From an archaeon SCG-AAA382B04 (lineage in GTDB: Archaea > Halobacteriota > Methanonatronarchaeia > Methanonatronarchaeales > Methanonatronarchaeaceae): a stretch of 64,000 bases of DNA. How positions within the stretch are numbered: position 1 is the stretch's first letter; the number at the start of each line of letters is the position of its first letter. The stretch is from contig PZKD01000100.1 in the NCBI GenBank assembly GCA_003034855.1, positions 62,001 to 126,000 on the forward strand. Direction: 5' to 3'. Below are positions 12,052 to 13,024 of this stretch, piece after piece. The notes under the pieces are model-generated. The model saw nothing but the letters and a program-made list of their open reading frames with translations, was not told the DNA's origin and did no database searches. Made by a program: the position numbers and the translations under genes.

Positions 12052-12285
12052 TTAGGTTCTTCTAACGAAATAAATTATTTGGGCTAAACCCATCCCAACC
12101 CCAAAAAATCCTAGGAGTACACCTGCCACAGGAGCCCATTCAATGTTCCCTGAACTCAATACACGTGGAGTTGAAACTGCTAATATGATAGTCCCTAAAG
12201 CGAACCATAAAAAAATCCTAAAGATTGGGGGTTTGAACGATTTAGTCTCCTGTTTCTTATCTTTTAATAATCTCTTTTTTTTCAT
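12052..12285 (-). CDS. Small two-helix membrane protein, unknown
   Basis: 77 residues: a Lys-rich start (MKKKRLLKDKK), then two predicted membrane helices (about residues 23-41, IFRIFLWFALGTIILAVST, and 52-73, APVAGVLLGFFGVGMGLAQI) and a basic end. It is convergent with the CCG-domain gene (two bases between the stops) and lies just beyond the right-end hairpin of the IscB-type element. I do not recognise the family. The reading is credible because of the clean helices and the absence of a better frame, but there is no functional clue. Confidence 0.55.
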   Translation of the reverse strand: MKKKRLLKDKKQETKSFKPPIFRIFLWFALGTIILAVSTPRVLSSGNIEWAPVAGVLLGFFGVGMGLAQIIYFVRRT

Positions 12286-12312
12286 CTTAATCGGGCAATG
12301 AGATCTCTTCCT

Positions 12313-12528
12313 TTAGGTAGGAGAGAAGTTGCCCTTCACCTCCGTTATAATTGTTTTGGCCTTTGTTATTAAATCGAGTTTTTTGCATTTAACCAAATGA
12401 GTGGTTGGGGTTCTCTTAACTACTTCTGCTTTATCTTTTTCTAAGAGATGCCTTGCTTTAGCTGGTTTTGTAGGTATTAAGGGTTCTCCCATCATGTTCT
12501 GAACATACACTTCTACTTTTTGACTCAT
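12313..12528 (-). pseudogene. iscB: IscB N-terminal RRXRR (PLMP) domain remnant
   Basis: 71 residues beginning KVEVYVQNMMGEPLIPTKPAKARHLLEK (read in two overlapping parts: VYVQNMMGEPLIPT and KPAKARHLLEKDKAEVVKRT). This is the RRXRR/PLMP domain that opens IscB and related HNH nucleases of the OMEGA systems. A full IscB continues with RuvC-I (xDPGSKxxG), bridge helix, HNH and RuvC-II/III over 400-500 residues; here the frame stops right after the first domain. The ORF follows directly on the structured RNA segment, as in intact IscB loci, and ends at a hairpin, so an internal deletion of the nuclease body is the simplest reading. A stand-alone RRXRR protein is the alternative. Confidence 0.75.
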
Positions 12529-12534
12529 ATTTTT

Positions 12535-12880
12535 TATCCTCTTTAAGCATACATGATGTTATGAGCTCTTCGAGTCCTAACCTCCCATATGCTGGGAGTG
12601 GGTTTCCCCTCACCAATGTTGGAGGAGAGATGATGTCCGTAGGATGTTTCTGGTTTGTTACGTTACTAAACCAGTTTACCTCACCTCGCCGTAACAGTGG
12701 GTTTCGTTCCCACGAACTCTCCAGAGCCTGAAGCTGAGGAAACACTCCAGAATGCTTCTTTAGCCTTTCCTCCGAACGTAGCTCAACTGCCCTCTTACTG
12801 AGAGGGTATCGCTAAGACTGGTCTCCTACAAACCCCTCCTAAACCTATGATTTAGATGGGGGTAGTTGACTTAACCACCT
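12535..12880 (-). ncRNA. HEARO / omega RNA of an IscB-type element
   Basis: No long frame, G+C far above neighbouring spacers, and several perfect stems. In plus coordinates these are: 12582-12587 with 12593-12598 (CTCCCA/TGGGAG), 12650-12656 with 12668-12674 (CTGGTTT/AAACCAG), 12697-12701 with 12709-12713 (GTGGG/CCCAC) and 12790-12795 with 12801-12806 (CCCTCT/AGAGGG). The 5' end on the minus strand reads GTCAACTACCCCC, a hairpin, then GAGGGGTTTGTAGG, the start I recall for HEARO RNAs. It sits directly before an IscB-type RRXRR start codon, the standard position of the guide-bearing RNA. Boundaries are approximate. Confidence 0.75.
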
Positions 12881-13024
12881 TTAGGTCATGTGAATGAACC
12901 AGATAATTATGAAAAACAGCCCACCAATAACTAATAATACAGATGCTATGATTGGTGCGTATTTCACAAACTTTGCTAAAAAATCTTTAACCTCTTCATC
13001 TTCTTTTAGTTCTTCCCATCTCAT
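12881..13024 (-). CDS. Small single-helix membrane protein (47 residues)
   Basis: Start ATG at 13024, stop TAA at 12883-12881. The protein opens MRWEELKEDEEVKDFLAKF, an acidic amphipathic head, then has one strong membrane helix (about residues 21-44, APIIASVLLVIGGLFFIIIW) and a short tail. It overlaps the UPF0216 gene by 29 bases in another frame and is probably co-translated with it. Family unknown; an archaeal membrane microprotein. Its last codons coincide with the presumed guide region at the 5' end of the IscB-type RNA. Confidence 0.55.
   Translation of the reverse strand: MRWEELKEDEEVKDFLAKFVKYAPIIASVLLVIGGLFFIIIWFIHMT

Follow-up and report, generated by a model that had tools for sequence, protein, structure and literature searches.

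IscB and IsrB act with an omega RNA that carries its guide at the 5′ end, and the left-end sequence matters for the activity of IS200/IS605 elements (PMC9581776). In the omega RNA of DtIsrB, pseudoknots have been described whose disruption abolished DtIsrB activity, and the stem-loop SL7 includes a Shine-Dalgarno sequence in a hairpin contacted by the PLMP domain of the protein (PMC9581776). Stand-alone omega RNAs are also known to function with IscB, according to work cited in PMC9581776. A stretch of 64,000 nucleotides from the archaeon SCG-AAA382B04 (Methanonatronarchaeaceae; assembly GCA_003034855.1, contig PZKD01000100.1, positions 62,001 to 126,000), called here the window, harbors a unit in which an omega RNA of the HEARO family precedes a 71-codon frame for the beginning of an IscB protein, the whole lying between two transposon ends. 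This locus is very probably an internally deleted, non-autonomous ISC element (IscB type, IS200/IS605 superfamily). Through the deletion, iscB would have lost its RuvC, HNH and C-terminal portions, so that its PLMP-coding start now abuts the transposon right end; the remnant keeps the left and right ends, the DNA that mobilization by a Y1 transposase in trans would require. The omega RNA would persist because its 5′ guide-adaptor stem doubles as the left end while the remainder is carried along between the ends; the short frame would be a decaying by-product, and any guiding of a resident IscB by the RNA would be no more than optional. The stub gives no evidence of a new system, and the unit is probably an ordinary shrunken copy among many in its genome.

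An earlier note on this DNA, made from the letters alone, had proposed a G+C-rich HEARO/omega RNA with perfect hairpins directly ahead of an RRXRR frame, and the covariance search agrees with it. The Rfam model RF02033 HEARO matches the minus strand at 12870-12598 over its complete length (model positions 1-211) with 42.6 bits and E 2.3e-7 (computed for 4227 families on 701 bases), and the same match appears with E 1.1e-7 when the whole genome is searched with the HEARO model. The score is nevertheless below the curated gathering score of 83, and a default scan of the window reports no HEARO, the match being recovered with an E-value threshold. The 356 bases around it have a fold energy z of -4.5, with 0 of 100 shuffles as good, and the G+C content at 12529-12871 is 47% compared to 34% in the window, a level reached by only 39 of 2547 equal-sized stretches. 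The description of the hairpins as perfect is loose, several stems having bulges and G-U pairs.

The open reading frame (ORF) begins seventy bases past the HEARO match (start codon at 12528, stop at 12313) and its product matches the RRXRR profile PF14239 with 32 bits (curated cut-off 25) and E 1.4e-7; residues 7-43 align with positions 1-37 of 174. The protein is thus a truncated form of RRXRR, or PLMP, the N-terminal domain of IscB, as had been supposed, and the nuclease body is gone: a profile search of the 71 residues finds only the start of RRXRR, with no RuvC and no HNH, which by domain content makes it neither an IscB, an IsrB nor an IshB. A full IscB, which the earlier note had thought worth seeking elsewhere in the genome, is present at C89:34064 (C-numbers denote contigs of the source genome, a draft of 132 contigs that is 93% complete); it has 404 amino acids with RuvC plus HNH and matches both the RRXRR and the HNH profiles, and its start is 75% identical in DNA to that of the window frame over 102 bases. 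An explanation of the HEARO and RRXRR similarities as chance or a composition artefact could appeal to the HEARO score under the gathering cut-off, but the two matches are independent and each significant, and their order, spacing and strand are as expected; together with the homology of the locus to the complete IscB and to further HEARO elements of the genome, this already refutes the explanation, which is almost certainly wrong.

The earlier reading overlooked that the unit as a whole forms a transposable element bounded by two conserved ends, and that RNA-only, frameshifted and stub copies coexist in the genome. The left end (AGTCAACTACCCC...) is 85% identical to C51 and C24 and the right end 72–74% identical to C89 and C2, all in the same genome. 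The starts of the latter two contigs (C89:1-77 and C2:1-77) are identical and read IMEVKGNSSPT-stop, followed by the same palindrome and AAGATGAA; the tail of the window frame is this right-end DNA read as codons in the same frame (ITEVKGNFSPT-stop against IMEVKGNSSPT-stop). The hairpin that had been noticed at the far end of the unit is present and recurs at these two loci; however, the palindrome (GGGCAA...TTGCCC, 12293-12334) is imperfect and its folding energy unremarkable (DNA z = -1.4), so that its significance comes from the recurrence and not from the folding. The left ends on C51 and C24 are likewise identical to each other over the final 77 bases of their contigs. Identical 77-base ends at contig termini are the trace that an assembler leaves of a collapsed repeat, and thus closely similar copies of the element exist; to judge by these sequences, such copies have probably moved recently. 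As the smallest assembled contigs measure 513 bp, the unassembled inside of the C24/C51-C89/C2 repeat probably measures less than about 510 bp and could lack the ORF. The window element has no transposase gene of its own, and shares its left and right palindromic ends with other copies of the same genome, which contains three intact Y1 transposase genes. One of these lies within a TnpA-TnpB element with an end palindrome of the same form as that of the window element, and a TnpB-like gene at C1:197522 terminates in the same GTCAACTACCCC hairpin. Boundaries were obtained by comparing ends, which places the inferred termini to a precision of 1–2 bases (Table 1).

Table 1. Features of the truncated ISC element and its flank, in window coordinates.
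Feature	Position	Strand	Basis or remark
Whole element, left end AGTCAACTACC... to right end ...TTAAGAT, 588 bp	12284..12871	-	Comparison of ends with other loci
HEARO (RF02033) omega RNA scaffold	12598..12870	-	HEARO match, fold z -4.5, compensatory pairs, likely nexus pseudoknot
Left-end hairpin / guide-adaptor stem of omega RNA	12826..12865	-	First helices of the HEARO match and 11-copy consensus; present in solo and minimal elements too
Terminal hairpin ahead of ORF, with GAGG Shine-Dalgarno-like motif (12538-12541) at its base	12538..12574	-	Likened to SL7 of DtIsrB omega RNA
Putative guide of omega RNA, host flanking DNA (ACATGACCTAAAGGTGGTTA)	12872..12891	-	Position predicted by analogy with IscB/IsrB omega RNAs
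71-codon ORF, truncated PLMP/RRXRR protein	12313..12528	-	PF14239 match; DNA identity to IscB start at C89
Transposon right end; palindrome 12293-12334; encodes last ORF codons (..ITEVKGNFSPT-stop)	12284..12351	-	Matches C89:1-77 and C2:1-77

The remaining copies place the unit in a series. The whole-genome search gave 12 HEARO matches, the window copy included, and 12 RRXRR matches. The eleven further HEARO matches comprise some next to IsrBs, to frameshifted IscBs or to another short RRXRR frame, and some that stand alone. In addition to the full IscB, the genome contains IsrB-type proteins (341 amino acids, plus fragments), a second HEARO with a short RRXRR frame at C1:19252 (95 amino acids, with a tail unrelated to that of the window protein), solo HEAROs without an IscB ORF (C1:144677, C54 and C67) and two IscB copies with the same frameshift (L018/L024 at C78:57805-58654 and L019/L025 at C111:21014-21863; L-numbers denote the loci examined). 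The single break shared by C78 and C111 indicates that these were copied after the frameshift arose. Loss of the protein with retention of the RNA and the ends is the usual fate of these elements in the source genome. Beyond it, RRXRR is present in 20 of 295 genomes of the phylum, and in the related genome G001 (G-numbers denote the related genomes compared) several IscBs are broken and mini-elements bearing these ends are numerous. In one of the 20 genomes, from another archaeal family, the locus L143 consists of a 145-bit omega RNA, a PLMP stub, what remains of iscB in a different frame and a right end, an arrangement that reads clearly as an internal deletion of the same kind as in the window element.

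Several observations weigh against this reading of the locus as a deleted and decaying copy. An empty site was sought in the nearest relative and none was found, the gene order after the V-ATPase subunit D gene being different there, which leaves the insertion presumptive. The frame itself is intact and preceded by a Shine-Dalgarno-like motif. Between the window protein and the intact IscB, 35 bases differ in 38 codons and 21 of these differences are at third positions; synonymous sites are saturated whereas 18% of non-synonymous sites differ, which together with the third-position excess implies that the frame was under coding constraint for most of its history. Finally, the window RNA largely retains its pairing. 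The past coding constraint is most simply understood as dating from when the frame was part of a full IscB.

The state of the RNA bears on another explanation, compatible with the deletion, in which the RNA would be a working stand-alone omega RNA that, acting in trans, leads the IscB of C89 (or an IsrB) to the empty insertion site and thereby helps to keep the element after excision. A full IscB and IsrB proteins are indeed at hand in the genome, RNAs of this kind can work with IscB according to the literature cited above, and the 20 bases that precede the RNA at its 5′ side belong to the flank of the unoccupied site, in line with what this function would lead one to expect. In an alignment of 11 copies from the source genome and G001, the window RNA shows seven or eight two-sided compensatory differences with respect to the commonest pair of the other copies, and a pairing that fits the nexus pseudoknot is kept at 5 of 5 positions with one A-U to C-G double change (the register, like that of the adaptor pseudoknot below, was assigned from the description in PMC9581776 and is putative). 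Compensatory changes of this type indicate that the window RNA was long under structural selection, and it may be near-functional even now. On the other hand, none of the other ten aligned copies has diverged as far: the window RNA forms 40 of 51 consensus pairs compared to 47–51 in the others. About 3 of 5 pairs are left in the pairing that would correspond to the adaptor pseudoknot, and in DtIsrB activity was abolished when the pseudoknots were disrupted. Several of the lost consensus pairs fall where the window RNA has an alternative ten-pair stem of its own. Additionally, the last 16 bases of the putative guide have no other match in the genome at 0–1 mismatch, and trans targets are no more numerous than for a control pattern; the only predicted target would then be the own empty site of the element. 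Guidance in trans is accordingly regarded as a tentative possibility, less probable than its absence.

The short protein was the centre of the earlier note's further suggestion that protein and RNA had been retained as a functional pair with a new, non-cutting role, for which no positive support was obtained. In its most concrete form, the 71-amino-acid PLMP protein would be a small RNA-binding protein that binds the Shine-Dalgarno hairpin to regulate translation, or that competes with IscB for the omega RNA. By analogy with the contact described in DtIsrB, the comparable hairpin of the window could offer such a target, and both the second short RRXRR frame beside a HEARO and the coding constraint during the history of the frame are consistent with it. 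Near-invariant PLMP positions, as judged against 29 other PLMP domains, are however changed in the window protein (M18I, G32D and F42T). With respect to the same outgroups, the non-synonymous divergence (pN) of the window protein is 0.27–0.33 and that of the genome's intact IscB 0.18–0.23, while the two differ from each other by 0.18; by these values the window branch has accumulated about three times as much amino-acid change as that of the intact IscB. AlphaFold, run with the same sequence set for both, predicts four strands for the intact PLMP domain with a predicted local distance difference test score (pLDDT) of 84.5, compared to a pLDDT of 62 for the window protein, in which residues 42-59 fall below 50 and the fourth strand is not formed there; Foldseek with this model ranks IscB and IsrB first, with E 0.014 and worse. 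As far as alignment and model can tell, the PLMP domain is recognisable but damaged, and the tail of the protein derives from transposon-end DNA. Moreover, solo HEARO copies exist without any protein, the two short proteins of the genome have unrelated tails, and no PLMP-only orthologue was found in 40 relatives, GTDB representatives or viral contigs, the latter two giving ordinary IscB starts or nothing. A regulatory role of the window protein is for these reasons very unlikely. The more general proposal, in which PLMP-only proteins beside omega RNAs would be a recurrent selected state, either as IF3-N-like RNA binders that regulate their own translation or as proteins that keep the RNA available to a resident IscB in trans, or withhold it from one, is likewise very unlikely. 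As a separate observation, in the four PLMP-only stubs examined (window 12313-12528, L016:1831-2118 at C1:19600, L142 and L143) the glycine before 'KA.VV', near-invariant elsewhere, is replaced by Asp or Glu, whereas it is kept in nearly all longer frames with one exception seen; the broken IscB L050 of G001 also has Asp, and the sample is small and post hoc.

Other observations concern the setting of these elements and their relatives. The window element is flanked by two small genes, both running in one direction. The right end and its flank read AAGATG in the window (12281-12290), at C89:70-77, C2:70-77, L062 and L063, and the next gene often begins at that ATG, so that the insertion junction would create or restore a start codon. 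At the opposite side, three different host genes, upstream in L015, L016 and L029, end in ..STTSP, coded by the first bases of the HEARO element, which suggests that elements are located at the 3′ ends of genes and supply their last codons. End palindromes are common to TnpB- and IscB-bearing elements (L231 at C89:1-4500, L235 at C1:197522, and L056, L062, L066 and L067 in G001). Several of the G001 mini-elements with these ends contain a segment of 300–400 bases with no HEARO match and probably of TnpB-side origin; a new RNA class was considered for those of L056 and L062, and they are better explained as TnpB-side remnants, since the same hairpin also closes the TnpB-like gene at C1:197522. 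IscB/IsrB copies broken by one-base frameshifts inside the PLMP codons, beyond which the frame is still partly open, are those of C78 and C111, L050, L054 and L056 of G001, and L011 (end of C45). At L145 (G224:C45; frame L145:821-1324), an IshB-like protein of 167 amino acids with PLMP and HNH and no RuvC is encoded between a HEARO RNA and a right end. The archaeal genome G138, a single contig of 4.1 Mb, gave 55 PLMP matches, mostly in frames of 420–490 amino acids, which amounts to a burst of IscB elements.

Taken with its relatives, the window element illustrates how, in an IscB element, the guide-RNA portion can survive the loss of the nuclease; side by side in one genome are copies with a full IscB, with an IsrB, with a frameshift, with a stub only and with the RNA alone. 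Whether a resident IscB is guided by stand-alone omega RNAs could be studied conveniently in such a genome. With the ISC elements that carry HEARO (RF02033), it shares an omega RNA that has a full-length HEARO match and lies directly 5′ of the protein gene in the same orientation, a left-end stem within the RNA, a palindromic right end and the PLMP start of IscB; it differs from them by the loss of the RuvC, HNH and C-terminal domains, the frame ending in the right end after 71 codons. Like IsrB and IshB, it combines a PLMP domain with an omega RNA, but its protein has neither the RuvC that IsrB keeps nor the HNH that IshB retains. It also resembles the stand-alone omega RNAs and the non-autonomous IS200/IS605 derivatives similar to miniature inverted-repeat transposable elements, in which RNA and ends persist with no working nuclease, as in the solo copies of the same genome; unlike these, the window unit still carries the 5′ stub of its nuclease gene as an open frame.
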